Virus record (IMG/VR): IMGVR_UViG_3300028581_000003
Location: 1 to 50,167 of that record
Source of the DNA: a virus
Reading direction: 5' to 3' (one strand)
Length of the DNA: 50,167 nucleotides
In this document: positions 8,657 to 50,167 of the stretch, piece after piece
How the letters are laid out: every line of letters starts with the position of its first letter
How positions within the stretch are numbered: the stretch's first letter is position 1
Position numbers and translations under genes: made by a program
Notes under the pieces: model-generated
Told to the model about the DNA's origin: nothing
The model's input: only the letters and a program-made list of their open reading frames with translations
The model's database searches: none

Positions 8657-11600
8657 TTATCTTGAGACATCAAAAGAACTATCTGACTTCTGCTTTGTTT
8701 TGCCACCAATTAACAATAATCCTATAAATAAAACAAGCAAAAACAAACATATAAAGAAAATATAATTATTTGTGATAATCGCGGAGATATTTCTAAAATA
8801 ATATTCAAAATTTGAAAGAATCTTGGTCTTTAAATCTTTTTCAACAATTCTAATTTCAAAAACTTTTTGCAAAACAATCTCGTTTTGCTCAACGATTATT
8901 GTCAAGTTTGCATCACTTGCATTTGTATAAAGTATTTTTGCATACAAAGAATATTTTCCGATATCATCACGAACAACTTTTTCAATTTCTATTATTGCTG
9001 TGGATTCATTTGCAGAAATTAGAGAAACATCGGTTAAATTTCCGTCGGCATCAAATGCATTTATGTTTATAATATAAGTTTGATTTATTATCCAATTTGA
9101 CTCTCCTAACAACTCGGCACGATTTAATTCTTTTTCTTCACTTGTGACTGGAAAAGACCCAGAGCCTTGCACATTATCCAAAGAATAAACATAAAATCCA
9201 ATATTCTTTTGGTCAGAAATATTGTTCTTTGAACAATTCATTATCAAGACATGATCACCATTTGGAATTATTGCAGAGTAATTAAACGATATGTTTGTCG
9301 GAGAAGACAAGAATACATTTGATGAATTGTCTAAATTTATAAAACAATTATCAGCAGCAATATTTGTTTGCAGTCTTATGTCTAAATATTTTGTATTTAC
9401 TAAAGCATTGTTGGTTGGAAAGAAGTCAGTTATACTTATGTTTTCAGAAGACACTTCTGCATCAAGTCCAGTAGAGTTGCTTCGTATTACATTGTATGAA
9501 ACAATAGAAGGAGACAGAGATGTATTTTGAGTTGACAAAATGCTTTTAAATTGAAAGAATTCTGTTATGACTGTTCCGTTTTTCCTAAAATTAGTTTCAT
9601 TAGTAACAGATTCATATGAAATCCAATCTGTAAAATTCAAAAACATATTTTCATATAGACTTGTTATTTCTGTTGAATTTAGAGATTTATTAAATATCAT
9701 AACTTCATCCACGTCTCCGCTTAAATCTCCACCATTTGCTGGAAAACCACCAATATGTATATCATAACCCGAAGTTGAATAAAGAGAAGAAGGAATTGCC
9801 GTTCCACCGTCTGTTGTGTTGTCTATCATTACTCCGTCTTTCCATAATTCCATTCTTGCTGGACTTCCTTGCCAAGTTCCTACGAAATGATGCCACTTTC
9901 CATCATTAAATTTTGCAAGTGAGTTTTGATGTCCACCGACTTTTGGAAAAGTGCTTCCGTCTCCACTTACTAAAAATGTTCCATATCCTCCGAGATGATA
10001 GACGCTAAACTTTCTTTGGTAGGCATTAATTGCATCTGTTATTAAATTTTCATTATCGCTTGATGCTGTTCTAGCCCACAGAGAAACTGATAATCCAGTT
10101 AAAGATTCTAGTCCTTGTGGTTTTGTTGCAGTCGCATAATCATCCGAGCTTTCTAATCCGAATCCGACAACTCCACTTTCATTAATTTTCATTCCATAAT
10201 TAGTTGTTGTTGAATTTCCTACTCTTGAATTTAATCCTTCATTGAACGACCAATGATAAACTAAATTTGCATGAGTTAAATAATTTTGTGCTGTTCGAGT
10301 TGCTATTTTTAGGCTTGTATTTGCAGGCATTGAAGAGTTTAAAAATACAGTAAATGCTGAATCGTTTTTTGTATAATTGTAGGAATTTACTTCTGATAAT
10401 GAACAACCAGTTACTGCAACATCACAGGCTTCTGTTATATTTGTTGCTGTATTTTGACCCGCACATGTAAAACCAGTATTGGTTGGACAATAAGAATAAA
10501 TCTGCCATGAACAAACCACAGAATAGGTTTCACAGTCACCCTGAACATATTGATAATGACATTCTGTAGCTGGTTGGCAATACCCATCCCAATAACAATA
10601 AGGATTTGCTAAATTGCAAGAACTTTCATCTAAGAAGTTATGATAACAATAATCATCCATGCTACTTCCCGAACAATAACCGATGTTTGCCCACGCTCCG
10701 CATCCTCCTTGATGATTACTAAAAGCATTACACGTTTCTTCTGTATAAAATAAAGCCTCACAACCAGCGTTCGGTGAGCCAGAACAATAATCGGATGTTC
10801 CTGTTAATTGCTTAATTATGTTATCAAAAACACCACTTTTAATATCTCCAACGGAAAAGAATGTATTTGCAGAATTATTTAAAAGCATCAATCCAGATGT
10901 TGCATTTTTAACTTGGGTTTGATTGTATTGTAAAAATGGCTGTCTTGTAAAAAACTCTGAAGAGCTTGCAACAAACAAGGGGTCAATCAAAACAGTTCCA
11001 TTTACATTAAGAGCATAAAAATCAACTTCAATATACTTCCCTGTATTTCTTGAAATCTCACACCGTGAATAAGAAACACCACAAATATCATGAAGATAAA
11101 GATATCTATTGTTTCCATCTTCAATAACATAACTTGCATTTTTCTTTTCGTCAAATTTGAAATCTTGAGTGGAATAAAATACATACTTATATTTATTCAA
11201 AGCTTTTCCAACTGGATTTTTATCGATTGCTCCAAATTTTAATCTGTTAAAATTTGCATCGTTCGCAAAAACATCAGTTGGAGAAACAACAAATTCTTTT
11301 CCATTCCACTTTTGCAGTTGAATCGACATATTAAAATCAGAAGTTAGATATTCAATTCGAGTTTCGTTTTGGTAAATCAATTCTGTGGAATTCTCTCCGT
11401 ATTTTAAATATTTTTCATTTGCAACTGTATAACAATATCCAAAATAATCTTTATCTAATTTTGATTTTTTTGCAGAAACTTTTACAGACTTAACTTTTTC
11501 CTTTGTAAATGATTTTGCATCCACAGCTGCTGATTTCTTTAGATCAATATCATTTAGGTCAGAAAGCTTTTTTGCATCATAACTTAAAAAACAAACTTCG

Positions 11601-11806
11601 GACTTATGTTTGTTTTTATCAGAAATCCAAACAAAATAGTCTTTTGCATCTTCGTCCGACATTCTAACAACTTTCCACTCTGCAGAATAGTTTACAACTT
11701 TAAAAGAAGAAGGAATTTCATTTTGTTTTTGAACAGCAGCAAAAGAAAAAGCAAAAAAAGACAATACAAATACAGACAAAACAATTAATGAATATATTTT
11801 TTTCAT
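8657..11806 (-). CDS. Large LamG-domain surface protein with C-terminal anchor
   Basis: 1,049 residues. Signal peptide (1 to about 23), a beta-rich N-terminal region, a Cys-dense segment (about 340-460, roughly twenty-five Cys in CxxxC/CxYxW arrangements, likely disulfide-knotted), then a LamG/concanavalin-like domain (about 515-720; VYHWSFNEG, SVSLWARTAS, KWHHFVGTW, GDVDEVMIFNKSL). Ig-like strands, a membrane helix (about 1015-1035) and a basic tail follow. LamG domains bind glycans or proteins, so a host-recognition or adhesion role is likely. ATGA overlap with the upstream secreted protein shows co-expression. Confidence 0.85.
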   Translation of the reverse strand: MKKIYSLIVLSVFVLSFFAFSFAAVQKQNEIPSSFKVVNYSAEWKVVRMSDEDAKDYFVWISDKNKHKSEVCFLSYDAKKLSDLNDIDLKKSAAVDAKSFTKEKVKSVKVSAKKSKLDKDYFGYCYTVANEKYLKYGENSTELIYQNETRIEYLTSDFNMSIQLQKWNGKEFVVSPTDVFANDANFNRLKFGAIDKNPVGKALNKYKYVFYSTQDFKFDEKKNASYVIEDGNNRYLYLHDICGVSYSRCEISRNTGKYIEVDFYALNVNGTVLIDPLFVASSSEFFTRQPFLQYNQTQVKNATSGLMLLNNSANTFFSVGDIKSGVFDNIIKQLTGTSDYCSGSPNAGCEALFYTEETCNAFSNHQGGCGAWANIGYCSGSSMDDYCYHNFLDESSCNLANPYCYWDGYCQPATECHYQYVQGDCETYSVVCSWQIYSYCPTNTGFTCAGQNTATNITEACDVAVTGCSLSEVNSYNYTKNDSAFTVFLNSSMPANTSLKIATRTAQNYLTHANLVYHWSFNEGLNSRVGNSTTTNYGMKINESGVVGFGLESSDDYATATKPQGLESLTGLSVSLWARTASSDNENLITDAINAYQRKFSVYHLGGYGTFLVSGDGSTFPKVGGHQNSLAKFNDGKWHHFVGTWQGSPARMELWKDGVMIDNTTDGGTAIPSSLYSTSGYDIHIGGFPANGGDLSGDVDEVMIFNKSLNSTEITSLYENMFLNFTDWISYESVTNETNFRKNGTVITEFFQFKSILSTQNTSLSPSIVSYNVIRSNSTGLDAEVSSENISITDFFPTNNALVNTKYLDIRLQTNIAADNCFINLDNSSNVFLSSPTNISFNYSAIIPNGDHVLIMNCSKNNISDQKNIGFYVYSLDNVQGSGSFPVTSEEKELNRAELLGESNWIINQTYIININAFDADGNLTDVSLISANESTAIIEIEKVVRDDIGKYSLYAKILYTNASDANLTIIVEQNEIVLQKVFEIRIVEKDLKTKILSNFEYYFRNISAIITNNYIFFICLFLLVLFIGLLLIGGKTKQKSDSSFDVSR

Positions 11807-13639: not shown

Positions 13640-14004
13640 TCTTTTTTCTCCGTTATTTTAATTTCAATATTTCTTTTATTGTGTTTTGAGTAATAAATAC
13701 CAAAATGTTCTAAAACTGAATAAAGTAAATCTTTAGTAGTTTCTAGGTCATAACCATTTTCATCTTCGTCTTTATATTCAAATACCTTTTCTCTGATTAT
13801 TTTATTTGTTATAATTTTATCTTCTTCTAATTCTTCTAATTCTTCTAATTCTTCTAATTCTTCGGAAGTTGTTATAAATACATTTTCTCTGATTATTTTA
13901 TTTGTTATAATTTTATCTTCTTCTTCTAATTCTTCTAATTCTTCTAATTCTTCGGAAGTTGTTATAAATCCGTTCTCTGCTTTTCTTATTTTTAGTTCTG
14001 TCAT
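13636..14004 (-). CDS. Small protein with recently duplicated Glu/Leu repeat
   Basis: 122 residues. Residues about 13-42 and 47-76 are near-identical copies of a unit FITTSEELEELEEL...KIITNKIIRE, each holding EEL triplets that vary in number between copies. The C-terminal about 40 residues (DLETTKDLLYSVLEHFGI onward) are non-repetitive and look like the functional core. The repeat is equally clear in the DNA and implies slippage or unequal exchange. Ends 1 nt before the next stop-start junction of the operon. Function unknown. Confidence 0.65.
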   Translation of the reverse strand: MTELKIRKAENGFITTSEELEELEELEEEDKIITNKIIRENVFITTSEELEELEELEELEEDKIITNKIIREKVFEYKDEDENGYDLETTKDLLYSVLEHFGIYYSKHNKRNIEIKITEKKE

Positions 14005-14005
14005 T

Positions 14006-14227
14006 TTATCCTTTACTTAATATTAATCCTTTTAATGCTTCGCAGTCACAATCTGCTTCCCATAAGTAAGGACTGATTTGTTTAGTTATTGAGTCTATTG
14101 CGTTACGCATTTTCTTTCCGCAGGTGGGACAAATTAATAATTCCTTTGCTCTGTCGTATTGTTTTAGTTTCATGCAAATATCAAACTTTTTCTGTAAAGT
14201 AAGTTTATCGTCTTCTTCGTTTTTCAT
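14006..14227 (-). CDS. Small zinc-ribbon protein
   Basis: 73 residues from the ATG at 14227, chosen for its ATGA overlap with the upstream gene and the GGAG about ten bases before it; an ATG six codons earlier is possible. A charged helix leads to CPTCGKKM and a late CDC, a likely single zinc site. Family not recognised. Confidence 0.6.
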   Translation of the reverse strand: MKNEEDDKLTLQKKFDICMKLKQYDRAKELLICPTCGKKMRNAIDSITKQISPYLWEADCDCEALKGLILSKG

Positions 14228-14604
14228 TTCTTCATCTCCAGCCATTGCTCTAATTGTTTTAGTTCGTCATCTGCGTTACAAATAATTGTATGTATTCTAT
14301 TTAACAACATTCCATTGTGGTCTTCTACTCCCATTTCTGCCCAGATGTCATCTATTTTAGCCAATAATCTAGCATAAGTTTTTAACACACTCAAAGCACC
14401 TTCGATTTTGCCTTGCTTTTTAGCTTTTAATTGACTATATTCTCCATATTCAGAACAATCTTCTAATGTTAATCTAATTATATTCTTTTCTTCAAAATTA
14501 TTTCTGTTTCCATATTCTTTATTCTCTTTATAAATTCTATCATAAACAATTTTCATCTCGTTATTGATTTCTTCTATTTCTTTAACGATTGGGTGAGTTG
14601 TCAT
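14224..14604 (-). CDS. Helical small protein
   Basis: 126 residues, almost entirely predicted helix with heptad-like Leu/Ile spacing, two isolated Cys and no membrane segment. ATGA overlaps at both ends place it in the small-protein operon. Function unknown. Confidence 0.6.
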   Translation of the reverse strand: MTTHPIVKEIEEINNEMKIVYDRIYKENKEYGNRNNFEEKNIIRLTLEDCSEYGEYSQLKAKKQGKIEGALSVLKTYARLLAKIDDIWAEMGVEDHNGMLLNRIHTIICNADDELKQLEQWLEMKK

Positions 14605-14813
14605 TTTTTACATAAACAATCAGCTAATATATTATAGCCCTTATCTTTTAATTCTTTTAATTTAAAGTGTAAATCATCTAAATCTGTAATCTTTATTGCA
14701 TCTGTTAATCCAACTGTTTCTACTTGACTACTATTTTCAAAACATGTTTTACCAACATTTAATAGGTAATAAGACTTTATTAAGTGATTTACGATTAACT
14801 TTTGGTATTTCAT
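14601..14813 (-). CDS. Hypothetical small protein
   Basis: 70 residues, mixed alpha/beta, with a C-terminal helix and a CLCKK ending. Joined to both neighbours by ATGA overlaps. Nothing recognisable. Confidence 0.55.
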   Translation of the reverse strand: MKYQKLIVNHLIKSYYLLNVGKTCFENSSQVETVGLTDAIKITDLDDLHFKLKELKDKGYNILADCLCKK

Positions 14814-22185: not shown

Positions 22186-22230
22186 ATGACAATAAAAATA
22201 AATTACATTTCAAAAAAGAGGAACAAATGA
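22186..22230 (+). CDS. 14-residue leaderless leader peptide
   Basis: MTIKINYISKKRNK, starting at the predicted transcription start and ending in an ATGA overlap with the next gene. A GAGG inside the leader could serve the downstream start. Same arrangement as at 21325. Confidence 0.5.
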   Translation: MTIKINYISKKRNK

Positions 22231-22694
22231 ATATCTTTGTATTGGACACAAATCCAGAGAAAGCAGCAATTGCACAGTGTAATAAACACGTTGTTAAAAT
22301 GCCTTTAGAGGCTACACAAATGTTATGCACAATTTTTAATTTGCATAATATAAAGGCCCCTTACAAATCGTGTCATTCAAAACATCCTTGCACTCTTTGG
22401 CTATCAAAATCAATGAATAATATCGATTGGCTGATTCTTCACACAAAAACTTTATTTTATGAATATACAATAAGATACAAAAGAGTTCATAAATCTGAAC
22501 AAGTTTTGGATTGGTGTATTAAAAATAAGGACAAACTACAAATTCCTTATATCGGATTGACTCCATTTGCTCAAGCAATGCCTGAGCAATATAAAAATAA
22601 GGATGCTGTTATTGCTTATCGAGCATATTATCAAAATGATAAATTAAAAATTGCAGTATGGCCAGAAAATAAAAGCCCGGAGTGGATAAAATGA
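22227..22694 (+). CDS. Phage-type conserved protein (CNKHVVKM family)
   Basis: 155 residues. The opening MNIFVLDTNPEKAA and the motif CNKHVVKMPLEATQMLC, then HPCTLWL and a C-terminal AYRAYY, belong to a small protein family I know from tailed-phage genomes with no settled function. No signal or membrane helices. It heads an operon of nucleotide and replication enzymes, so a DNA-precursor or DNA-repair role is plausible. Confidence 0.65.
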   Translation: MNIFVLDTNPEKAAIAQCNKHVVKMPLEATQMLCTIFNLHNIKAPYKSCHSKHPCTLWLSKSMNNIDWLILHTKTLFYEYTIRYKRVHKSEQVLDWCIKNKDKLQIPYIGLTPFAQAMPEQYKNKDAVIAYRAYYQNDKLKIAVWPENKSPEWIK

Positions 22695-23002
22695 CAAAAG
22701 ACGCAAAAAATGGCGACTATTTTATAAAAGCTTGTCAAATGGTTTCTGAAAATCCAACTTTTGTTTTTTGTTATGCAAAAGTTCTAGGTCAAGGCCCATT
22801 GACCGGAATTCGATTTCATCATGCATGGGTTGAATTAAGAGATGTTGTTTTTGATTATTCAAATGGAAATAATATTGTTTTAAGAAAAGAATTATATTAT
22901 GAAAAAGCAAATATTGAAGAACAAGATGTTGTTAAACAAACTTCCAATGAAGTTATTTTGTTAATGCTACAAACAGGAACATATGGAGGTTGGATAAAAT
23001 GA
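22691..23002 (+). CDS. Hypothetical protein with HHAWVE motif
   Basis: 103 residues from the ATG at 22691 (ATGA overlap); a GTG three codons earlier is possible. CQMVSENP near the start and FHHAWVEL ... VFDYSNG place Cys, His and Asp in the order of papain/transglutaminase-like folds, a pattern seen in phage small proteins. Catalysis is not established. Confidence 0.55.
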   Translation: MTKDAKNGDYFIKACQMVSENPTFVFCYAKVLGQGPLTGIRFHHAWVELRDVVFDYSNGNNIVLRKELYYEKANIEEQDVVKQTSNEVILLMLQTGTYGGWIK

Positions 23003-23400
23003 ATATTATTGATGTAACTCCCGAAGAAGTTGAAAAAGAAGTTCAAGCTTTACAACCAAAGGACACAATGGATTTACTTTTGAAAATTGGCAAAGAATAT
23101 ATGCAAAAGTATCAATCTGAGCCCATTGATATTGATACAAAAGAAGGTCAAAAAGAATTTAGAAGAATAAGTTGTTATTTAATTGAGGAATTGATGGAAA
23201 TGCAAAATTGTTTAAAAATTAGAGAATGGTCTATTTCTGAATACCCGGTTGATCAACAACATTTCGCCGAGGAATTTGCAGACTTTTTTAATTTTGTTAT
23301 GCAAATCCCTCTGTTGTTAGGATATGAAGAAGAAAAAATTAAAGATATTATTATTCGAAAAAGAATTGTTAATAAATTTAGACAGGAGAGTTCATATTAA
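22999..23400 (+). CDS. All-alpha NTP pyrophosphatase, dUTPase/MazG-like
   Basis: 133 residues from the ATG at 22999 (ATGA overlap). Helical, with the two metal-binding motifs of the MazG/dimeric dUTPase fold: IEELMEM (E-x-x-E) and, about 30 residues on, EEFADFFNFVMQI (E-x-x-D), followed by LLLGYEEEKI. Members hydrolyse dUTP, dCTP or other NTPs to the monophosphate and pyrophosphate. Directly upstream of the thymidylate-synthase homologue, so it probably feeds it dUMP or dCMP. Confidence 0.7.
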   Translation: MNIIDVTPEEVEKEVQALQPKDTMDLLLKIGKEYMQKYQSEPIDIDTKEGQKEFRRISCYLIEELMEMQNCLKIREWSISEYPVDQQHFAEEFADFFNFVMQIPLLLGYEEEKIKDIIIRKRIVNKFRQESSY

Positions 23401-23402
23401 AT

Positions 23403-24137
23403 ATGCGAATTTTTAAGAATTTCAAACAGCTTATTCAAGAATTACCACGAGAAGTTTTTACTAGAGGTCAAGAGGTTTTTGATAAGTCTGTTCAAGGAAA
23501 AATTGTAACACAAGGCGAAGGCTTTGAACAAAAAGAATTATTTGGAATGTCGTATATGATTAATGATTTTTCAGATCGAGACGAAATGATGTTCTTAGCT
23601 CAAAAAATGTTTAACAAAGAGCATTTAACAAAGGAAGTTGCAGAGCAATGGTTTTGGGATATGATTCACAATCCAACAACAAAAGAAACTTGGTTTGATA
23701 AAACTCAATACACAAAAGAATACTTTGAGAAATTTTGTAATGAAAATAATTCCGGGACATCTGCATATGGATATGGAGAAAGAATTATTCCTCAATTAGA
23801 TTCTTTAATAAAAAGATTAAAAGGAAATTTATACGCAAGAGGAGCCTATATTGCAATGCATGATAATCGAGATATTCATAGAATAGGTCGTAGAATCCCC
23901 TGCACGCTGTCTTATGGTTTTGCTGTTAGAAAAACATTAGCCGGGGATAAAATGAATATGTTTTTACATATGCGGAGCCAGGATTTAGTTAATTTTATGA
24001 CTCTTGATTTATATAAGGCAACATTATTTCTGGAATATGTTGCAAAAGAACTAAATGTAAAGACGGGAAAACTTATTGTTTATGTGGATTCACTCCATGC
24101 ATACAAACGGGATGTGCCCTCTAGTGTAACTTGGTAA
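23403..24137 (+). CDS. Thymidylate synthase homologue with dCMP-type active site (candidate dCMP methyl/hydroxymethyltransferase)
   Basis: 244 residues of the ThyA fold. Nucleophile C167 (RRIPCTLS), phosphate-binding R191-S192-x-D194, then D202, H232 and Y234 (SLHAY). Spacing from D194 onward equals E. coli ThyA (D169, N177, H207, Y209). The position of ThyA Asn177, which reads the uracil base, is Asp here. T4 dCMP hydroxymethylase has Asp at this site, and the change makes thymidylate synthase prefer dCMP. I infer a modified cytosine in the element's DNA, though a dUMP-using enzyme cannot be excluded. Lies between a dUTPase/MazG-like gene and the DNA polymerase. Confidence 0.8.
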   Translation: MRIFKNFKQLIQELPREVFTRGQEVFDKSVQGKIVTQGEGFEQKELFGMSYMINDFSDRDEMMFLAQKMFNKEHLTKEVAEQWFWDMIHNPTTKETWFDKTQYTKEYFEKFCNENNSGTSAYGYGERIIPQLDSLIKRLKGNLYARGAYIAMHDNRDIHRIGRRIPCTLSYGFAVRKTLAGDKMNMFLHMRSQDLVNFMTLDLYKATLFLEYVAKELNVKTGKLIVYVDSLHAYKRDVPSSVTW

Positions 24138-24649
24138 CAAACGATTATTTGAATATTTTAATCTATTTTTGTGAAAAAGCAAAAAAGAAAGGGCAGTTAT
24201 TAATTTTTAATGATGTTTCTTTGCTTTCTTTTGTTCCAAGAATTGTTCACGAAGATGCGATTCTTCCTTTTATTAATATAAATATTGACAAAAAGAAAAA
24301 GTATATCTTAAAAACATATTATAGCGGAGAAATAACAAAAAAGAATCCTTGTATAGAATCCATATCAAATAATAAAATCTATTTTAGAAGTTGTCGAGTT
24401 TTTCCAACATTTTTCATAGATTTACTTGTAATTGAACAGTTACAATACCATAAAAAACTACTTGAAATCAAAAAGATGTTCATCGGTTATCACATCTTAG
24501 GCCTGGAAAAACTTTTCAAAGAATTTGATATTGTGATTCAAAACCCGGACTATTATTTAGTTTTAGAACATTGGAAAAAAAGATTTGCAAATGAGAATTT
24601 GAAACTAGAAATGTTAAAGAAATATAAGGGGTGGTTGAATGGAAAATAA
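24131..24649 (+). CDS. Hypothetical protein between ThyA-like enzyme and polymerase
   Basis: 172 residues from a TTG at 24131 that overlaps the previous stop; no in-frame ATG occurs near. Mixed alpha/beta, with a central beta region (PFININIDKKKKYILKTYY) and helical C-terminus. No motif recognised. Its place suggests a partner in nucleotide modification or replication. Confidence 0.55.
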   Translation: MVTNDYLNILIYFCEKAKKKGQLLIFNDVSLLSFVPRIVHEDAILPFININIDKKKKYILKTYYSGEITKKNPCIESISNNKIYFRSCRVFPTFFIDLLVIEQLQYHKKLLEIKKMFIGYHILGLEKLFKEFDIVIQNPDYYLVLEHWKKRFANENLKLEMLKKYKGWLNGK

Positions 24650-27110
24650 AAAAGGTGTTTTCTTCAATGTTGAGCAATGTCAAATAGGAGGAGACTCTTG
24701 TGGATTAAGATTTTTAGGAAGATGGGAAGATAAGTCAAAAATGGATTTTATTACAAAAGGTCAAAAACCATATTTTTATATTTTAGAAGATGAGGCCTCT
24801 TTAATTACTTTTGCCTGTAAAAAAGAATATGGATTCATGAGTATTTACAACGACAAATTGATTAAAATTATTTTCGATAATCCTTTTGATACATGGACTT
24901 TTAAATCTTTATTTACAAAAACATTTGAAGCAGATGTTCATTATTCTTTGAAGTATCTGATCGACAAAGATTTGTATGATGGAATAGAAGTTAAGAATAA
25001 CGAAGTTAAGAATAACGAAGTTTTTCATTCTGAAATTGATGTTGAGCCAAGAGTTATGATTGTAGATATTGAAACAGATTATGTTGGAGGGTCAAACTCT
25101 GATATGATGAGACCAATTATTTCAATTGCTTTTTATGATAATTATACAAATAAATTATATTGCATTGCAACAAAAGATGACAAAGAAGTTTTTGAAAAGA
25201 AATATCTTTCGACTCAAAAAGAATTAAAAACAGAAATTGAAGTTGAATTACAAGTTGTAACTTCAGAAAAACAACTACTGGAAATTTTCAAAAAGTTTGT
25301 AATTGATTTTGATATTGACATTTTTACGGGATGGAATGTCAATTTTGATATGATTTATATTTTACATAGACTTGCAACTTTGAACTTAAATGTCAGTGAA
25401 ATGTCTCCTTTGCGGAAAATTTCATACTCAACAGAGTATGTTGTCTCCGGAGAAAAACAAGCAAAATATGCTACGGGTAAACATGAAAAGAAAGTCAATA
25501 TTAAAGGACGAGCTATTATTGATTTGATGGCGGGTTACAAAAGAATGAAATGGAAGTCTGTTCCTTCCGGTAGTCTGGAGGCTGTTGGACAAGTTGAATT
25601 TAAAACAGGAAAGATTCAATATAAAGGATGGATTCACGACTTTTGGCTTTCTGATTTTGATAAATTTATTGAGTATAATATTCGAGATGTTGAAATTTGT
25701 ATAGCTTTAAACAAAAAATATAATATTCTTAATTCACTATTAGGAATTAAAAAAATGTCTGGTTGTGAATTAGCAGATATTTTACAAAATAGTAGAATTA
25801 TTGACACATACATTTTAAGAAATTGTAAAAATAAAATTATACTTCCATCAAAAAATTACGCAAAAGACTACGATGCAATTGAAGGAGGATTTGTTTTAGC
25901 TCCTAGATCTGGTATAAGTAAAAACATTGTTGTTCTGGATTTAAAGTCTTTATATCCATCTATTATGTTAAGTTTTAATATGTCTCCGGAAACTATTGAT
26001 TTAAATGGTGAAATAAGTGTTGGAAATGGAATCAAATTCAAAAAAGAAACAGGCATACTTAAACATATTTTACAAGATATTTTAGATAAGAGAGATGGGG
26101 TAAGAGCACTTTTGAAAACACCTGAGTATGATAAAGAAAAATATCCCGAAAAATATTTAACAATGTATAAGAAACAATACTATTATAAAACTTTTCAAAA
26201 TTCCTTCTACGGCGCCACGCTTTATCCAGGTTTTAGATTATTTAATCCTGACATTGGAAAATCAATTACATTTGTTGGAAGATTTTTGAATGAAAAGATG
26301 CGAGAACTTTGTATAAAAAAAGGTTATGAAGTTATAACTGCAGATACAGATTCGGTTTATGTTGATGTTCACGAAGAAAATTCTGAAAAAGCAATTGCTA
26401 TTGGAAAACAATTAGAAGATGACATCAATCACTCTTTTGCAACTTGGTTTGCGGATAAGGGAAATGATGCAAGTTTTATTAGTATTAAATTCGAAAAATT
26501 ATACGGAATTTATGCAAATGCCGGTGGCAAAAAGTGCTATGCAGGAAATATTGTCTGGGATTGGGAAAAAGGAATGTTGGATGTTCCAGAAATGGAGATC
26601 AAAGGATTTGCAACGGTTAAGAGTGATCGAAGTTTAGTAAGTAAAAAAATTCAAAAAACTGTGATTCAAATGATTTTAGCAGAAAAAGATACAAAATCAA
26701 TTATTGCTTTTATTTATCAAGAAATTGATAAGATTTATGCAAAAAAATATACTTGGGAAGAAATCGGAATTCCAAAAGCTATTTCAAAGGATTTAGATGA
26801 GTATAAGATTTCAAATCCTTGGATTGATGGAGTAAGATATTCTCTCGCAAATGTAAACGGATTTACATTTTCTCCAAAACCTTATTTGTTATATGTTAAA
26901 AAATCGAATAAATACAAAACATCTTGTTTTTGTTTTAATAATACTTGGGAAGTTCCTGATGATTTGCCAATTGATTGGGAAAGCATGTTATTAAAAAGTA
27001 TTGCAAAAATTGTTGAAAAGCTATTTGAAATGCTTCATGTTGAACCAAAAGTAGTAGACATCTATATAAAAAATAAATTAACAAACCAAAGATTCTTAGA
27101 TTCTTTTTAA
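24639..27110 (+). CDS. Family B DNA polymerase with 3'-5' exonuclease
   Basis: 823 residues. Exonuclease motifs: DIETD (D143, E145), GWNVNFD (D237) and YNIRD (D350). Polymerase motif A DLKSLYPS at 434-441, motif B KTFQNSFYG at 517-525, motif C DTDS at 569-572. All catalytic acids are present, so it should be a proofreading replicase. No protein-priming insertions recognised. A 15-bp unit (VKNNE) is tandemly duplicated near residue 118-128. Overlaps the previous gene by 11 nt. Confidence 0.95.
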   Translation: MENKKGVFFNVEQCQIGGDSCGLRFLGRWEDKSKMDFITKGQKPYFYILEDEASLITFACKKEYGFMSIYNDKLIKIIFDNPFDTWTFKSLFTKTFEADVHYSLKYLIDKDLYDGIEVKNNEVKNNEVFHSEIDVEPRVMIVDIETDYVGGSNSDMMRPIISIAFYDNYTNKLYCIATKDDKEVFEKKYLSTQKELKTEIEVELQVVTSEKQLLEIFKKFVIDFDIDIFTGWNVNFDMIYILHRLATLNLNVSEMSPLRKISYSTEYVVSGEKQAKYATGKHEKKVNIKGRAIIDLMAGYKRMKWKSVPSGSLEAVGQVEFKTGKIQYKGWIHDFWLSDFDKFIEYNIRDVEICIALNKKYNILNSLLGIKKMSGCELADILQNSRIIDTYILRNCKNKIILPSKNYAKDYDAIEGGFVLAPRSGISKNIVVLDLKSLYPSIMLSFNMSPETIDLNGEISVGNGIKFKKETGILKHILQDILDKRDGVRALLKTPEYDKEKYPEKYLTMYKKQYYYKTFQNSFYGATLYPGFRLFNPDIGKSITFVGRFLNEKMRELCIKKGYEVITADTDSVYVDVHEENSEKAIAIGKQLEDDINHSFATWFADKGNDASFISIKFEKLYGIYANAGGKKCYAGNIVWDWEKGMLDVPEMEIKGFATVKSDRSLVSKKIQKTVIQMILAEKDTKSIIAFIYQEIDKIYAKKYTWEEIGIPKAISKDLDEYKISNPWIDGVRYSLANVNGFTFSPKPYLLYVKKSNKYKTSCFCFNNTWEVPDDLPIDWESMLLKSIAKIVEKLFEMLHVEPKVVDIYIKNKLTNQRFLDSF

Positions 27111-29971: not shown

Positions 29972-30009
29972 AAATTTCTTTATTTAAAGAAATTTCAACT
30001 TTTGAAATT
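29972..30009. terminator. Pair of perfect palindromes between converging genes
   Basis: AAATTTCTTTA/TT/TAAAGAAATTT (29972-29995) is immediately followed by AATTTCAA/CTT/TTGAAATT (29991-30009). They lie where the plus-strand ligase operon meets the end of the integrase gene. Likely a two-way terminator; a recombination-site role beside the integrase is also possible. Confidence 0.45.
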
Positions 30010-30745
30010 AAATAAAAGTATCGCCATAGATTTGTCGAATTTGTTCTTTTTCTTTCGGAGTAAATGAATCTGATTGGGAATAATGTTCATATTGTGTAAT
30101 TAAGTTATGTCCAAATCGGGTAGATAATTTCATACTATCAACTCCAATCGACAATGCCCAATTCTCAGACGTTTTTCTTATACTATGAATTGATAACATT
30201 TTATAGTCTTTTACTTTTGCTTTTTCTAGGGCTTTCTTTAAAGCTTTATGTGCGGCAGGTTGTGAAAGTAATCCTAATTCATTTTCTCTATTTAGATTAT
30301 TGTCATTAATTACTTTTCGAAGATCTTTGATCAATTCTCTAGATACACGAATTGTTCTGGTTTTACTTTTATTTTGTATATTGTCGCCATGTCTTCTTTT
30401 AGTTACTTTAAGAACTAATCTTTGATTTGGAAAGTCGATGTCTTCTACTTTAATGTGTTGAGCTTCATTAATTCTGGCACCAGTTAATAATAAGACTTTG
30501 AATGTGAAAACCTGATGCTCTTTTAGATTAGAAAGTAAATTGAACCATTCATCGGGATTAAGTATTCTATCACGATTTGATCTTACACTATATTCTCTTC
30601 CATCCGATTTGATTCCTATTGCTACTTCTTCATTTGAGAAGTCAAGAAAGAGTTTAGTCTTTCCACATTCACAAATTAACTCATTATCTTTTCTGAGCCA
30701 AACATGTTTGTGTGTCGTATCCATTTGTTGTGTTAAAGAATTCAA
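30008..30745 (-). CDS. Tyrosine recombinase/integrase
   Basis: 245 residues. An N-terminal zinc-like motif (HKHVW ... CEC, residues 12-27) precedes a short core-binding part. The catalytic domain has all residues: R91 (LLTGARINEA), K116, H187-x-x-R190 (HSIRK), H213 (FGHNL) and Y222. Can integrate the element or resolve circle dimers. The N-terminal domain is shorter than in most integrases. Start ATG 30745 chosen as the first in frame; an ATG at 30724 is possible. It is the only gene on this strand here, with its own promoter (TATA at 30823). Confidence 0.9.
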   Translation of the reverse strand: MNSLTQQMDTTHKHVWLRKDNELICECGKTKLFLDFSNEEVAIGIKSDGREYSVRSNRDRILNPDEWFNLLSNLKEHQVFTFKVLLLTGARINEAQHIKVEDIDFPNQRLVLKVTKRRHGDNIQNKSKTRTIRVSRELIKDLRKVINDNNLNRENELGLLSQPAAHKALKKALEKAKVKDYKMLSIHSIRKTSENWALSIGVDSMKLSTRFGHNLITQYEHYSQSDSFTPKEKEQIRQIYGDTFI

Positions 30746-31622: not shown

Positions 31623-32082
31623 ATTAATGATAAAGAAAGGTGGTCCTTTCGGCTATTCTTGGTATAGACATGTTGAAGTTCCAGGAGGAAGACTGTTAAT
31701 CGATGAAACCTCGTCTATAAAAACAGAAGGACAACTAGCAAACTTAATTAGCAAGAAGTGGGGACAAGGAAGATATCAAATACTAGCTTGGCAAGGGGGA
31801 TATGAAGGATTCTGGCTATTTTGGCTTGGAGAAATAGGAGAGAATGGCTTCTTAAGAGAAAAGAATGTCAACAAAGACTTGAAAAAAGCCAAAGAAGAGT
31901 ATCAAAAGCGAATGACAGAAGTCGAAACTTATGAAGAAAAAAAAGAATTGGTCGAAGAGATGGAAGACGATTTAAGCTTTGAAAGAGAGTTTGCAAAAGA
32001 CACAAAATCTTCTAAAAGAAGAGGTCCAATGGGAATTAAAACAAACCGTCCTGGAGAATGGCATAGATTTGAGGAGTATTAA
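31609..32082 (+). CDS. Hypothetical protein with coiled-coil tail
   Basis: 157 residues from the ATG at 31609 (AGGAG nine bases before). A Trp/Gly-rich N-terminal domain (GGPFGYSWYRHVEVPGG, WQGGYEGFWLFWLGE) is followed by a charged helical region and a basic end. Directly before the ATPase, 1-nt overlap. Possible ATPase partner; no family recognised. Confidence 0.55.
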   Translation: MKPIKLMIKKGGPFGYSWYRHVEVPGGRLLIDETSSIKTEGQLANLISKKWGQGRYQILAWQGGYEGFWLFWLGEIGENGFLREKNVNKDLKKAKEEYQKRMTEVETYEEKKELVEEMEDDLSFEREFAKDTKSSKRRGPMGIKTNRPGEWHRFEEY

Positions 32083-33530
32083 TGGTTAAGAAATTCTTTA
32101 AAACAACTCCTTTGAAGACTTATTATCCAAATTCAGATTTAGAAGGTCCGATTTTCATTTTTGGTCGTATGGGTGGCGGTAAATCTGTCTCTGCAAAATC
32201 AATAATTGAAGGTTTTCATGACAACAAAGGATATAAGGTTTGGGATTTGTATGGTGGAGAAAGAAATGAGGGATTATATTGGACAACTCCTTCCACTGAA
32301 AAGACTTATTGGGACAAGCTTAAAATACTTGCAAAGTTTTCTGAAGAATTTCCAAAACAATATAAAGTAAACATGTTATATCCTTATTTTGAAAGTGGAG
32401 CTGTAAAAAAGCTTCCAATAAAGAAAGTTGGAGAAGAATTTGTTGTTAATTCAAAGTATTTTACGATATCCATTAAAGACATAACAGTAGATGACATAAA
32501 AATGGTCATTGGAAATCCTTCAGAGAACTCTAAATTTCATTGGGAAGAATTGCAAAACAAATTGGATAAACACGACAATGTTCAAGCTTTGGATTATTAC
32601 TCAGAAAAACAAAAGTGTGATACAACTATTCTTTATAAAAACTTTATTCTTCCAATGATCAGAGAAAGGTTTTTGCAAAGTGAATATTGTTCTACGAACA
32701 TTGATTTAATATCAGAAGCTAAAAATCAAGAAGCAATAACTGTGCTGTGCTTAGATTTTGTTCCTGAAAAGTTTCATCTATTCGTGATTAATTATTTTTG
32801 CAGTCGTTTGTCTGACTTAATTGATGACAATAAAATTCCCAAAAAGAATATTGGATTTATTAGAGAAGCAGCGACATTCTTTAGAGCGACAGATGATGCA
32901 GTCATAGAAGACAGATTGAAAATTTTCAAAAGCAACATGGCTCATTATATACGAATGGGACGTCGTGGTTTCTATTTTTGTCTCGATTGTCAGAGTCCAT
33001 ATGAAGTAAAAGGATTAGTTGAAGGAGCATCTGATTATGTTATGATGTTTAGGACTTCGTCTACAAGAGACAAAGATGAAATGTGTGCTGAACTTATAAA
33101 AACAGGGCGTATGTTAAGAGCACAAGCAAATGAATTGGATATGCTTGAAAAAGGACAGTGTTTTATTGCTGAATCAGGAGCTCCTATAGTTAGAAAAGTT
33201 CAGGTCATATTGCCAAGATCTGCGTTTTGGAAAAAAGAATTTCCTAATTTTTATAAAACCTTTTGGGAAAGTCATGGTGGTGATTGGAAAGTGGTAACAG
33301 AAACAATGGACATGATTGAAGAAGAAACGAAAAAGATTAAAGAAAAATATAAGCAGAAAAGAGAAGAAGAAAGCCAAAAGAAAAAGAATTTAAAAGAAGA
33401 ATACGGAGATGATTCAATGGCTGAAGAAACAGAAGGAGAAGAAGTTGAAACTGAAAACAGTGAAGTTCCAGAAGCAAAAATAATGCCACCTGTTATGAGC
33501 ATGAAAGACTTTTTTGGAGGAAGAAGATGA
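32082..33530 (+). CDS. HerA/FtsK/VirD4-like P-loop ATPase
   Basis: 482 residues. Walker A FGRMGGGKS at 27-35, Walker B-like NIGFIREAATFF near 257-268, and FYFCLDCQSP near 298-307 in the place of the arginine/glutamine sensor strand of HerA/VirD4 ATPases. A long charged C-terminal tail (about 400-470) may contact DNA or partners. No membrane helices, so it would dock on the small membrane proteins encoded just upstream. Likely role: DNA packaging into virions or DNA transfer. Packaging versus conjugation cannot be decided from sequence. Confidence 0.75.
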   Translation: MVKKFFKTTPLKTYYPNSDLEGPIFIFGRMGGGKSVSAKSIIEGFHDNKGYKVWDLYGGERNEGLYWTTPSTEKTYWDKLKILAKFSEEFPKQYKVNMLYPYFESGAVKKLPIKKVGEEFVVNSKYFTISIKDITVDDIKMVIGNPSENSKFHWEELQNKLDKHDNVQALDYYSEKQKCDTTILYKNFILPMIRERFLQSEYCSTNIDLISEAKNQEAITVLCLDFVPEKFHLFVINYFCSRLSDLIDDNKIPKKNIGFIREAATFFRATDDAVIEDRLKIFKSNMAHYIRMGRRGFYFCLDCQSPYEVKGLVEGASDYVMMFRTSSTRDKDEMCAELIKTGRMLRAQANELDMLEKGQCFIAESGAPIVRKVQVILPRSAFWKKEFPNFYKTFWESHGGDWKVVTETMDMIEEETKKIKEKYKQKREEESQKKKNLKEEYGDDSMAEETEGEEVETENSEVPEAKIMPPVMSMKDFFGGRR

Positions 33531-34003: not shown

Positions 34004-34385
34004 AGACAAGCAGAAAGATATTTATTTTTTCTCGGTTTGTTTACTTGTCTTGCTTTTATTAACTCTCGGAGACATTCTTTCAACTTATCTGGCTCTAAGT
34101 GTAGGAGCTCAAGAAGGAAATCCAATAATCGCAAAATACTTTGATGATTATGGATTAGAACTTGGATTGATACCAATGTTTTTTCTTCAAGTTAAAACAC
34201 ACTTAATTGTTTTGATTTTGCCTCATTTAATTAATCTCTTGTATGTTTATTTACGAAGAAGTCATCTAGAATATCATGATAGAAAATGGATTCATATTTG
34301 TCAAATAGTTATTGTCTTGCTTGGAATTTATACATTTGTTCCAACCATAATAAACAATTTTAGAATATTTTTTTCGTATTTATAA
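33996..34385 (+). CDS. DUF5658-like membrane protein
   Basis: 129 residues from the ATG at 33996 (AGGAG eight bases upstream). About four membrane helices. The first helix runs into LGDILSTYLALSVGAQEGNPI, the D-x-x-S-T ... G-A-x-E-x-N-P signature of DUF5658, a family of archaeal and bacterial membrane proteins without known function. Ends against the tRNA-like gene on the other strand. Confidence 0.6.
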   Translation: MFKDKQKDIYFFSVCLLVLLLLTLGDILSTYLALSVGAQEGNPIIAKYFDDYGLELGLIPMFFLQVKTHLIVLILPHLINLLYVYLRRSHLEYHDRKWIHICQIVIVLLGIYTFVPTIINNFRIFFSYL

Positions 34386-34455
34386 CAGATGCTGGATTTG
34401 AACCAGACTTCAAGGTTATGAGCCTTGTGTGCTTGCCAGATTACACCACACTGTT
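34383..34455 (-). tRNA. tRNA-Met-like gene (anticodon CAT), imperfect acceptor
   Basis: Five-base anticodon stem CAAGG/CCTTG with loop CTCATAA; D arm GTGT/GCAC with GG in the loop; T arm CTGG-TTCAAAT-CCAG. The outer five acceptor pairs (AACAG/CTGTT) form but pairs 6 and 7 do not, the outermost T-stem pair is T-C and the variable loop is only three bases. No encoded CCA. Could be a working Met or Ile (after modification) tRNA, a decaying one, or a remnant used as an integration site. It overlaps the end of 33996 by 3 bp. Confidence 0.65.
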
Positions 34456-45908: not shown

Positions 45909-48900
45909 TTAGATAAAGATAATTGCTATAAAACTTATGATTACAGAGATTGCTATGCTTAAGAACAGTCTTATCTCTTTCAAAATCTTCATCTTTCGAA
46001 AAACAATATAATTGAAGAAAAAATATGAAATTAGAGAAAAGAGTGCAAAAATAATAAAGTAAGGCACTTTAATTACTTTTCCAAATATTGTAAGTTCTTT
46101 GTCTTTTCCAAGTTTAATTACAGTCTCGACGATTTGAGTTCCAGGAGCTCCAACTATTATTTTTAGAGTAATAATTGCATCTTTATTCTTTGCATCAACT
46201 GCTCTAATGTTGAGAAAATATTCTCCTTCTGTAATGTCTATCGGCAACTTTATTGAAAATGTTTTTTCAGTTATAAAATTGGATTGAACAGGCAATACAA
46301 ATGAGCTAGATTCAAAAGATAACCAAGAACAAGAGCTTAAACTTGAATTAGTAACTGAGCACTCTAATTTTATTGTTTGCTCTATCGTTCCTAAGTTTTC
46401 AAATTCAAAAGTTCCTGTTCTTTCTGCTCCTTGTGACATCTGAAAGTCAAATGCTTTTGTTTTTATTGACCATTTGCTTTCATTTGTATCTCCAACAACT
46501 ATTGTTGTTCCTCCGCTACCACCATTACTTCCCGGATTATTAATCACATCATTTTCCTGTGTTATTATAAAATCAGAATATGTTTGTCCAAGCAATCCAA
46601 GTGTATCATTTGCAAAAAGATTTATTCTATATTTCCATCTGCTTTCAGTATCATCCGGAGCTGCTAAAGTTATTGAAATGTTTTCACAATTTGCTAGACT
46701 TGTATTTGAAACTTTAGATTGCAAAGACGAAGTTAAGTTTTCTACATTATACCAACAAGCAGAAACTTGTGAGCGATTGATGGTGTGTTTAATTTGCATA
46801 AGATACTCTGTTAATTGTGAAACAAACACTGCATCGAATTGAGGCGTTGTTATTTCAAATCCAGGAGAGTTAATTTTAACAGATCTATTTGGTGTTATAG
46901 AGCAATAATCCAAGACATCACAAGCTTCTACATTAAACGTGTAATTGCCTGCTGTTAATCCATCAAAATAATGAAAGTTTGTTTCTGAGTTGTAAACTGT
47001 TGTTGCCACATTATTATTTTCATCAAATATTCTATAAGTTATGTTTTTGAAATTGTCATCATAAACAAACACATGAGCAAAGACTTGCCTTGTGTTGTAT
47101 AAATTTCCAAGTGATGATGTTGATAAAAAGTATAACTCCAAAGGTCTATTAATTGTCATTTTTCTCAGTTCTGTTGAATTTTGATTTCCAACAATATCGG
47201 ATGTATTAACTTGATAATAATAAATGTTTGAAGATAAGTTTGTGAAATTGTAAAATAAGGTATCATTTGTGAAACTTACATTTTTGACCAAGGACATGGA
47301 AATGTTGTAAAGACTAAATGTTATATTCTTTGGATTTATTTCTGTTCTGGAAATATTTACAAATATGCTGCTTTGATTTGTTAAAGTGTCATTTGCAGGT
47401 GTGTTTAATCCAAAAGATATTAATGGATTTTGAGAGTTTGTGTTTATTGTAAAGCTTCTTGAAAAATCCTCAGTGGAATAAGATGTATAATTTAAAGAAA
47501 CTTTGCTTAAATTCAAATAACCAGATCTAGAGGAAAATATTTCAATAGGAATTGTGCAATTTGAAAATGAAGTGCAGTTTGCAGATATAAGTGAAACATT
47601 CGTTGAACTTGAATGAAACTCTAAGGATGAAGATGCATTTGAGTATACAGTCTGACCACCAACTTTTATACTTACATTGCTTAATGCTTTGTATGTTGTT
47701 GTTGGAAGCCAAATTCCATCATTGCTCGAAAGCAATCCAGAGTCAACACCTATTAATTGAGCCTGAGTTGCAAAACCATATCTATTACTTCTTTCAGGGG
47801 CAACATATGGAGTTGTTAAGGTTATTGGATTATTTCCTATATTAAAAAAGCTCTTATCCACAGATACACAATACTTTCCAAAATTATAACAAGAACTTCC
47901 GCAAACATCTATTTCCCCACTTGTCCATGTTTTAACATTTACACCATTTACTGCCATGGTTATTGATTGAGAAGACTCTTGACATGCTAACATACAAATG
48001 CTTATATTGTTGTTTTCATATTCATCCCAATATGTATCACTTGAAATTGGTAGATTGTATGAGTTTGAAGTTGAATCAGAATAAGCTCCAATCATGTTAT
48101 CAGGAGCATAAGGAGAACATGTATCAAAAATGGTGTCATTAAATCGTGCAGTTGAAATGTTTGTCTTTTGAGATGAAAAGTTTAATAAGAAATTTGTTGC
48201 ATTGTAAAAGTTATTTGCTTTTATGTAGACTCTTGTTGTTTGATTTGCAGTTATAGGTAAAAATTTAGAAGTTGTCGAATCATTAAAGCCATTCAAAGAT
48301 ATGTTTGATCTGTCAAGTTTTTTCATCTCTACTTCAGAGGATACATCTTTCTTTAGTGAAAATAAAAAGTTAAATATCTTTTCTCCAACTCCAATTAACT
48401 TTTGAACTCCATCGACAAACCATTGAAAAGCACTCTCTTCGTCTTCTTCACCTTGATAAGTAAAGGTTACATTTGCATTTTCTTCCCAAGTTGAATTTCC
48501 CTCAACTTGCAAAACACAAGCTGTTGAGTTGCAAATGTTTGTTTGATACGGTGAATAAAATTCTCTTAATTCGGTCGAGTTTATATTTCCTGCCAAATCT
48601 TGAACATATGCTTTAATTGTATGATTTCCAGATTCAAATGTTTTATTGTAGAAAATGCTTGTTGAATTGTATAGTGCCATTATTTCTTGTGAGTCTAGAC
48701 TTCTATTAAAAATCATTACATCGTCTATTGAGCCGTTATAGGGAGATGCCCCATCACCACGATAACCTATTTGTCTTAAAATAGCAGGATTATCAAAAGT
48801 GTTGTTGATCATAACAGGAGAACCTATTGAACCATCAACACCACCGGTCATATGTGTTCCATTATAAGTATAAGTAATTAAATGCCATCCGGGATTCGTT

Positions 48901-50167
48901 GAAAATGAATAGGTCTTCAATTGGGTTGTATAGATAGACACTCTATTACCCCACAATGAAAATCCGCTTTCAGAAGTATCTCCCCTCATTAAATTCATAA
49001 GTCCGTAAAAGGGAACCCCGCCAGGTATTGGATAAACTGGATTAATCCACATACTTATTGTATATTGTGATAAGTTGTAATATCCAATACTTATATAATC
49101 ATTACTTCCATCAAAGCTAAACGCTTTCCCGAACTTTCCACTCGTAACCTGTGTTGCTCCTCCAATAGCAGTTCCATTATTTCTGCCCATATAATCAATA
49201 ACCTTTGTTCCAGTAGAATCCGTATCATCCATTCTCCACCACGAAACTAAAGAATTATCTATATCCAAAATAGTCGAAGAATTTGGAGCAGAAGCTGTGG
49301 AAAAATTTATTAAAATTTCTCTTTGCTGATAATAAGTATTATTTATAGGAGAATTGAAAATATACAAAGGAGAAATTCTATCAATTGCTAAAGTATTATT
49401 TTGGGTTTGATAGTTATTTCCAGACCAATCAAAGATGGAATAAAACCAATTGTAAGTTCCATCTACAAGTGTTATTACAATTCCTAAAGTTGATTGAGTG
49501 ACTCCCTCCACAAATGTTATTGTTTGATTTAAAACTCCATTTATCCACAGACTTGCGTTTTTAATTCCTGAGTTGTCCGAAACACTTGCTGTGAAATTAT
49601 GAGTTGCATTATTTGAATAAGTATTATTCGCAGGATTAATTAAAGTTCCAGATGGCAAAGATGTATCCAAAGTTATTGTCTGACTTGTCGAGCTTCCACA
49701 ATTATTTGCTAAATCACAAACTGTTGAATTATAAGTGTAAATTTCTGATAAAAGACTTGTCCAATTGATTGAATTTATGTTTGTCAAATAATTTGTTGAA
49801 TTAACCAGACTTGTGGAGTTGTAAAGATTGTAAGTTATATTTTTGAAGTTTATTTCTGTTACAGATGTGGAAATGGCAAACCAATTATTTGATGAGAATG
49901 TATTATTTTCAGGAGAAGTTATTGACACAACTGGATTTGTCGCATCGATTGTTAATGTATTGTTCGGAGAAGTGTATACATTTCCAGCAAAATCGTAAGA
50001 CTTATAATTCCAATACCAAACATTGTCCGAGATTCCTGTTATATAATTCGAATCAATGTAAGAAGCTGTTCCTGGAACAGTTGTATGTGAAAAGACACTT
50101 CCTAAAGAATTATACATTGTCATTGTAATGTTTTTTATCATAAAGTTATCTGTGATATTGGCAGTAA
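45909..50167 (-). CDS. Giant surface adhesin-like protein, C-terminal part (continues from 1-3683)
   Basis: Same gene as 1-3683; 50041-50167 duplicates 1-127. This part adds Ig-like repeats (SITSPENNTFSS, GTLINPANNTYSN) and a LamG domain (SLVSWWRMDD ... FSFDGSNDYISI ... SIDDVMIFNRSL). More Cys-containing beta domains, a GGSGG linker and a final beta domain follow, then a C-terminal pair of membrane helices (PYFIIFALFSLISYFFF, then LFLSIAISVIISFIAIIFI) anchoring it. Over a hundred N-x-S/T sites suggest dense glycosylation. LamG plus propeller plus Ig repeats points to cell attachment. At 2,604 residues it takes about 16 percent of the circle. Confidence 0.85.
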   Translation of the reverse strand, partial: TANITDNFMIKNITMTMYNSLGSVFSHTTVPGTASYIDSNYITGISDNVWYWNYKSYDFAGNVYTSPNNTLTIDATNPVVSITSPENNTFSSNNWFAISTSVTEINFKNITYNLYNSTSLVNSTNYLTNINSINWTSLLSEIYTYNSTVCDLANNCGSSTSQTITLDTSLPSGTLINPANNTYSNNATHNFTASVSDNSGIKNASLWINGVLNQTITFVEGVTQSTLGIVITLVDGTYNWFYSIFDWSGNNYQTQNNTLAIDRISPLYIFNSPINNTYYQQREILINFSTASAPNSSTILDIDNSLVSWWRMDDTDSTGTKVIDYMGRNNGTAIGGATQVTSGKFGKAFSFDGSNDYISIGYYNLSQYTISMWINPVYPIPGGVPFYGLMNLMRGDTSESGFSLWGNRVSIYTTQLKTYSFSTNPGWHLITYTYNGTHMTGGVDGSIGSPVMINNTFDNPAILRQIGYRGDGASPYNGSIDDVMIFNRSLDSQEIMALYNSTSIFYNKTFESGNHTIKAYVQDLAGNINSTELREFYSPYQTNICNSTACVLQVEGNSTWEENANVTFTYQGEEDEESAFQWFVDGVQKLIGVGEKIFNFLFSLKKDVSSEVEMKKLDRSNISLNGFNDSTTSKFLPITANQTTRVYIKANNFYNATNFLLNFSSQKTNISTARFNDTIFDTCSPYAPDNMIGAYSDSTSNSYNLPISSDTYWDEYENNNISICMLACQESSQSITMAVNGVNVKTWTSGEIDVCGSSCYNFGKYCVSVDKSFFNIGNNPITLTTPYVAPERSNRYGFATQAQLIGVDSGLLSSNDGIWLPTTTYKALSNVSIKVGGQTVYSNASSSLEFHSSSTNVSLISANCTSFSNCTIPIEIFSSRSGYLNLSKVSLNYTSYSTEDFSRSFTINTNSQNPLISFGLNTPANDTLTNQSSIFVNISRTEINPKNITFSLYNISMSLVKNVSFTNDTLFYNFTNLSSNIYYYQVNTSDIVGNQNSTELRKMTINRPLELYFLSTSSLGNLYNTRQVFAHVFVYDDNFKNITYRIFDENNNVATTVYNSETNFHYFDGLTAGNYTFNVEACDVLDYCSITPNRSVKINSPGFEITTPQFDAVFVSQLTEYLMQIKHTINRSQVSACWYNVENLTSSLQSKVSNTSLANCENISITLAAPDDTESRWKYRINLFANDTLGLLGQTYSDFIITQENDVINNPGSNGGSGGTTIVVGDTNESKWSIKTKAFDFQMSQGAERTGTFEFENLGTIEQTIKLECSVTNSSLSSCSWLSFESSSFVLPVQSNFITEKTFSIKLPIDITEGEYFLNIRAVDAKNKDAIITLKIIVGAPGTQIVETVIKLGKDKELTIFGKVIKVPYFIIFALFSLISYFFFNYIVFRKMKILKEIRLFLSIAISVIISFIAIIFI

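Follow-up and report, generated by a model that had tools for sequence, protein, structure and literature searches.

To our knowledge, the viral relatives of thymidylate synthase (ThyA or TS) that act on dCMP make only three types of product (5-hydroxymethyl-, 5-methyl- and 5-hydroxy-dCMP). Each type has its own set of residues at a few positions of the pocket. In T4 dCMP hydroxymethylase (T4dCH or gp42), a ternary complex revealed that the substrate water is activated by Asp145, which precedes the catalytic Cys by three residues (hereafter Cys-3) and interacts with Ser94, which is two residues before Tyr96 (hereafter Tyr-2). A D145N mutant yields no 5hm-dCMP, TS has a Leu at Cys-3, and Asp/Glu at Cys-3 combined with Ser/Thr at Tyr-2 constitutes the signature of hydroxymethylation (PMC6400193). 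In the metagenomic contigs studied by MetaGPA, Asn or Asp at position 177 (numbering of E. coli TS, EcTS) separates unmodified from modified-cytosine contigs, positions 177 and 147 being the best separators, and this residue switches the substrate from dUMP to dCMP; in work cited there, N177D/N229D converts TS to a dCMP methylase (eLife 2021, PMC8670742). Archaea are not mentioned in the main text of that paper. In RB69-type phages, 5-hydroxy-dCMP is made by a TS-superfamily enzyme, according to one publication (PMC13390438), and the function of AfhB, the 5-hydroxy-dCMP synthase of HY126 and RB69, is taken here from the titles of its PDB entries (9iqc, 9iqu) and one citing paper. Xp12-type phages, which have 5mC genomes, are represented in our comparisons by their relative DLP4, used as a stand-in for Xp12.

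The window analysed here, i.e. the whole 50,167 bases (31% G+C) of record IMGVR_UViG_3300028581_000003, contains at 23403-24137 (+) an intact ORF of 244 aa with an ATG start. Its product is an Asp-type ThyA that probably makes a modified dCMP and whose Arg/Tyr pocket, as read from alignments, matches no characterised version. The ThyA fold is recognized by Pfam (PF00303, E 1.4e-14) and PHROGs (phrog_160, E 1.2e-26), and the protein scores far below the cut-off of every NCBIfam thymidylate-synthase equivalog. An AF2 model (pLDDT 88.5, pTM 0.88) matches TS-family structures at Z 19-23, with AfhB on top (9iqc, Z 22.7, 3.1 Å over 219 residues; 9iqu, Z 22.3), followed by MilA (Z 20.8) and EcTS (Z 20.0); T4dCH is not among the best 50 matches, which is no sign of a different fold. 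AfhB is also the closest solved structure by sequence (phmmer, E 4e-8 for 9iqc/9iqu). The catalytic Cys/Arg/Ser/His/Tyr set of the superfamily is present, the enzyme retaining Cys167, Glu81, Arg146, Arg191, Ser192, Asp194, Asp202, His232 and Tyr234. An earlier, sequence-only reading of this locus had placed C167, R191, D194, H232 and Y234 with ThyA spacing, and these positions are correct, as is the spacing of D202. Glu81 (EcGlu58, T4 Glu60) was assigned via an AEQ motif compared with AEDFW in RB69 and RELEW in T4, in a gappy segment that the MAFFT alignment offsets by two residues. Of the phosphate-binding Arg126-Arg127 pair in EcTS, the second Arg is replaced by Gly147. The TS-type C-terminal tail is absent, 15 residues following the SLH motif, and in all relatives except one no more than 13-27 residues remain after the SxH motif.

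The residue expected to select the base is Asp202, which both MAFFT and profile alignments put at the position of EcTS Asn177 and T4 Asp179, exactly where the same reading had located it. This position and that of EcD169 are both Asp in 66 out of 66 alignable relatives, a degree of conservation that is beyond chance. The pterin-binding Asp (EcD169, T4 D171) is Asp194 in the enzyme, while the position of EcHis147 is occupied by Thr168, as by Thr149 in T4, and in 64 relatives by Ser. Key positions of the E. coli ThyA sequence that served as a ruler were cross-checked against PDB alignments and T4/SPO1 profile alignments.

It is in the rest of the pocket that the enzyme departs from T4dCH, with which it is 23% identical and shares the ThyA fold without a C-terminal tail, the base-reading Asp, the catalytic Cys, the Glu and the pterin Asp. 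The Cys-3 position, Asp145 in T4, is Arg164 (Arg in 65 of 66 relatives), while the Tyr-2 position, Ser94 in T4, is Tyr122 (Tyr in all 63 relatives that are readable there), so that the two positions have changed as a pair across the family. Elsewhere, Cys-3 is Asp in the SPO1 dUMP hydroxymethylase and a Dickeya-phage relative, and Glu in the RB69/PTm1 group. For the window enzyme only, the segment S120-A-Y-G-Y124-G-E-R also allows a second reading, in which Tyr122 is the active-site Tyr and Ser120 falls at Tyr-2, but the gapless match to the family and the 'YGERL' of SPO1 favour Tyr124 as the active-site Tyr. The sequence-only description of the enzyme as resembling T4 dCMP hydroxymethylase thus holds for the choice of substrate, through the Asp, but not for the T4 signature, in place of which Arg164 and Tyr122 are found.

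Besides about 60 relatives from viral contigs, the family takes in phage records and a single genome contig. When the window is left out of its profile, the enzyme is still detected with an E-value of 2.9e-49, well above any characterised enzyme, and in a maximum-likelihood tree it groups with the Arg/Tyr relatives, among which it forms a long basal branch. This clade, in which cytosine selection and the pterin Asp are kept, includes more than 50 viral contigs. A single-protein scan of viral contigs with the enzyme returned no close relatives, and identity to family members is 27-35%, which, together with the long basal branch, means that the activity of the window enzyme could differ from that of the family. 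The nearest named proteins are gp43 of actinophage JacoRen57 and Huwbert gp67, which share the Arg at Cys-3 and Asp177 (family-profile scores of 115-127 bits) but have His rather than Tyr at Tyr-2. We know of no characterisation of either protein. JacoRen57 also shares with the window a MazG-like neighbour, annotated as dUTPase, in the order kinase - MazG/dUTPase - hypothetical - enzyme - ORF - PolA, although its polymerase is PolA instead of PolB.

The gene lies in a run of six (22227-27110, +) with overlaps of 7-13 nt at four of the five junctions, and these overlapping ends suggest co-expression. The run is headed by a gene (22227-22694, +) of the pyrimidine-dimer-glycosylase-like or 'DNA binding protein' phrog_624 family (phrog_624, E 7e-52; Pfam Pyr_excise, E 1.5e-5), which is found in 591 phage records. 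A 106-aa ORF follows (22682-23002, +) with no confident family match in Pfam, PHROGs or NCBIfam, and then a MazG/dimeric dUTPase-like NTP pyrophosphohydrolase (22990-23400, +; phrog_12184, E 4.7e-14; Pfam dUTPase_2 below cut-off), which stops 2 nt ahead of the start codon of the enzyme, so that the earlier statement that a gene of this kind precedes it is borne out. Its C-terminal stretch shows a weak local match to the T4 gp56 dCTPase (33% over 51 aa, E 3e-5 in one comparison), making it a candidate for a dCTPase-type partner converting dCTP to dCMP. The cluster to which this gene belongs, which is transitive and loose, is found in 46 of 58 clustered loci (57 with the enzyme), at a median of 1.9 kb upstream of the enzyme, and direct BLAST links it to genes of three viral contigs (L062, L023 and L007) and to the 'dUTPase' of JacoRen57. 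A MazG-superfamily pyrophosphohydrolase (PF01503) likewise accompanies the Asp177-type thymidylate synthases of the MetaGPA modified contigs, as does dCMP deaminase (PMC8670742). Downstream there is, as had been stated, a DNA polymerase of family B (PolB, 24639-27110, +; PF00136, E 4.4e-43), although it does not follow directly since a 172-aa ORF (24131-24649, +) with no Pfam or PHROG family lies in between and overlaps both neighbours. A dCTPase-type gene and a PolB nearby are also shared with T4, whose replication region includes gp56, gp42 and gp43. In three related loci (L020, L047 and L051), the order is kinase - MazG - enzyme - PolB.

Unlike in the T4 pathway, no kinase or glucosyltransferase was recognised in the window. 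There is no P-loop ORF for a kinase, including an hmdCMP/dNMP kinase, in this stretch, which may be a fragment, and the Thymidylate_kin Pfam has no window match, although it is a weak tool that picked up only 4 of 26 records. Nor was any glycosyltransferase or other tailoring gene recognised in the window, and the term 'hypermodified' that had been applied to its cytosine is therefore not sustained. The more general proposal of a role in cytosine modification fares better: the Asp177-type dCMP switch, the putative dCTPase-type partner and a role in supplying DNA precursors are all supported, and what is not is the specific analogy with the T4 hydroxymethylase.

The explanation we favour, with a probability of roughly 0.62, is that the enzyme, a member of the Arg/Tyr clade, works as a dCMP C5 one-carbon transferase with folate as its cofactor and feeds modified dCTP to the viral polymerase. 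The MazG-like neighbour would produce dCMP from dCTP. By analogy with T4dCH and TS, Cys167 would then attack C6 of dCMP while the cytosine is held and protonated by Asp202; 5,10-methylene-THF, the donor of the one-carbon unit added at C5, would be activated and held by Glu81 and Asp194. With no TS-type C-terminal tail to close the active site, the exocyclic methylene would most likely be hydrated, giving 5-hydroxymethyl-dCMP, and not reduced to 5-methyl-dCMP. Phosphorylation of the modified dCMP towards the triphosphate would fall to a host kinase, or an unseen viral one, and the neighbouring PolB would substitute modified dCTP for part or all of the dC, possibly shielding the DNA from host nucleases. 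If dCMP is indeed the substrate, 5-hydroxymethyl-dCMP has slightly better than even odds of being the product; another C5 adduct is considerably less to be expected, 5-methyl-dCMP is an unlikely outcome and 5-hydroxy-dCMP would come as a real surprise. The findings that count against this explanation are the departure from the T4 hydroxymethylation signature, the fact that the nearest solved structure is a 5-hydroxylase and not a one-carbon transferase, the lack of a recognised kinase or tailoring gene in the window, and the long basal branch of the window enzyme with its 27-35% identity to the family.

The second of these findings raises the idea of a flavin-dependent dCMP 5-hydroxylase, in which C5 would be oxidised by flavin without use of folate, as in phages HY126 and RB69. 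FAD-bound AfhB leads both by sequence and by fold, has the same dCMP-type Asp and is similarly short at its C-terminus. Its lead in Z is modest, however, since values within the superfamily differ little, and in AfhB, RB69_048, PTm1 and AbPhT2 the pterin-Asp position is occupied by Asn (RSxN) and Cys-3 by Glu, where the window enzyme has Asp194 and Arg164 and its family the invariant Asp and near-invariant Arg given above. As the pterin-binding Asp is without exception in the family and is Asn in the AfhB group, folate seems more likely than flavin, an argument drawn from few characterised enzymes, and we consider the hydroxylase quite unlikely. Synthesis of 5-methyl-dCMP by a methylase of the kind found in Xp12-type phages is also unlikely, although N177D alone makes TS a dCMP methylase (literature cited in PMC8670742), an Arg at Cys-3 eliminates the water-activating acid, and in DLP4, too, a MazG-like gene adjoins the Asp-type ThyA. 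The DLP4 enzyme has Asn at Cys-3, a long TS-type tail and an adjacent DHFR gene, whereas the window family is tail-less and DHFR was found in 0 of 34 records (the window included), which may be fragments; this difference would speak against reductive methylation. The unusual pair at Cys-3 and Tyr-2 could alternatively mark out a fourth class of ThyA enzymes acting on dCMP, in which something other than water or hydride would capture the methylene (or C5) and Arg164 would help to keep the incoming group in place; the product would be a cytosine derivative new to DNA. That is a doubtful proposition.

Further from the favoured transferase are two explanations in which cytosine would not be modified at all. 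The Pfam and PHROG names would make the enzyme an ordinary viral thymidylate synthase acting on dUMP, with an incidental Asp, and no other dTMP synthase is recognised in the window. This is difficult to reconcile with the missing Asn177 and tail, the invariance of the Asp and the distance from the NCBIfam equivalogs. Moreover, a separate dTMP synthase is present in 9 of 37 related records (ThyX in seven, a canonical tailed Asn-type ThyA in two), contig L002 has a ThyX-like ORF near the enzyme and phage Huwbert an Asn-type ThyA directly after the Asp-type one, which implies that in at least those viruses thymidine is supplied by something else. It is thus unlikely that the enzyme serves thymidine, and an ordinary synthase seems very improbable. 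Less credible still is a decayed, inactive subunit or regulator. The long branch, Gly147 in place of the second Arg and the frequency of divergent ThyA-fold paralogues beside the family would all be compatible with decay, which would nevertheless have had to spare each of the nine retained residues listed above, from Glu81 to Tyr234.

An archaeal host is plausible for this virus, given the general style of its proteins and the similarity of its PolB to those of haloarchaeal tailed viruses, which are its best-ranked matches in the phage collection (about 25% identity); a single-protein scan of viral contigs gave no close relatives of this PolB. The secreted LamG proteins and short hydrophobic-start proteins of the window fit an archaeal element. 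The enzyme family itself is not limited to archaea, its named members coming from bacteriophages and from one contig of a gut-bacterial genome. ThyX, MazG, DNA methyltransferases and 7-deazaguanine genes are listed in a survey of haloarchaeal tailed viruses, which never mentions hydroxymethyl or hydroxymethylase (PMC8651126). To judge from its genes, this virus may replicate with modified cytosines in its DNA, and the Arg/Tyr clade would represent either a new base or one more route to hydroxymethyl-dC; should the host be archaeal, precursor-level cytosine modification would be added to what is known of archaeal viruses.

Several additional observations concern the surroundings of the enzyme in the window and in related contigs. 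A divergent second ThyA-like gene is found near the enzyme in up to 36 loci (30 + 6, in two clusters), sometimes as two genes in tandem and partly assigned to phrog_34294 ('unknown function'); examples are L014:6882-7790, L016:7199-7957, L004:13000-13989 and 13982-14767, L067:8642-9475 and L007:5107-5895, among others. These paralogues keep the Cys, R-x-S-E and the final Asp, align with the enzyme in the same register in a profile comparison (E 1e-5), and a model of one (pLDDT 92.6) matches AfhB (Foldseek E 1.3e-6, Z 14.8), so that a second subunit or a second modification enzyme is possible. The 172-aa ORF of the window (24131-24649) reads NPCIESISNNKIYFRSCRVFPTFFID, a PC...RSC...D pattern resembling the Cys, Arg-Ser and Asp of ThyA with the right R-to-D spacing, a likeness that is statistically unsupported. 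As a shrunken version of the paralogue it was set aside as unproven: hhalign gave P 0.02-0.17, and when the paralogue profile was run against all 424 frames of the window this ORF did not stand out.

In nine clustered loci (L061:9560-10885 and relatives), the Asp-type enzyme is followed, about 1.2 kb downstream, by a gene that by eye resembles glutamine amidotransferase/asparagine synthase (N-terminal MCGI) and is a candidate tailoring enzyme for hypermodified cytosine. The gene order closest to that of the window is a compact module in L020, L047 and L051 (TS at 8001), which with names given partly by eye reads Cas4-like nuclease - primase - SSB-like - kinase - MazG - Asp-type ThyA - PolB. 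Copies of the phrog_624-like gene that are 50-52% identical to it occur in viral contigs, in stretches which, as fetched, share hardly any other tested window gene. Elsewhere in the window, a P-loop ATPase that by eye is HerA/FtsK-like is encoded at 32082-33530, and neither it nor the primase-helicase of the window has relatives in the collections searched. The large secreted LamG-domain proteins are encoded at 8657-11806 and 45909-50141, and none of the window ORFs scanned was recognised as a capsid or tail gene of tailed-phage type. Finally, a tyrosine integrase gene (30008-30745) and a tRNA-Met gene (34383-34455), about 3.6 kb apart, possibly form an integration module.
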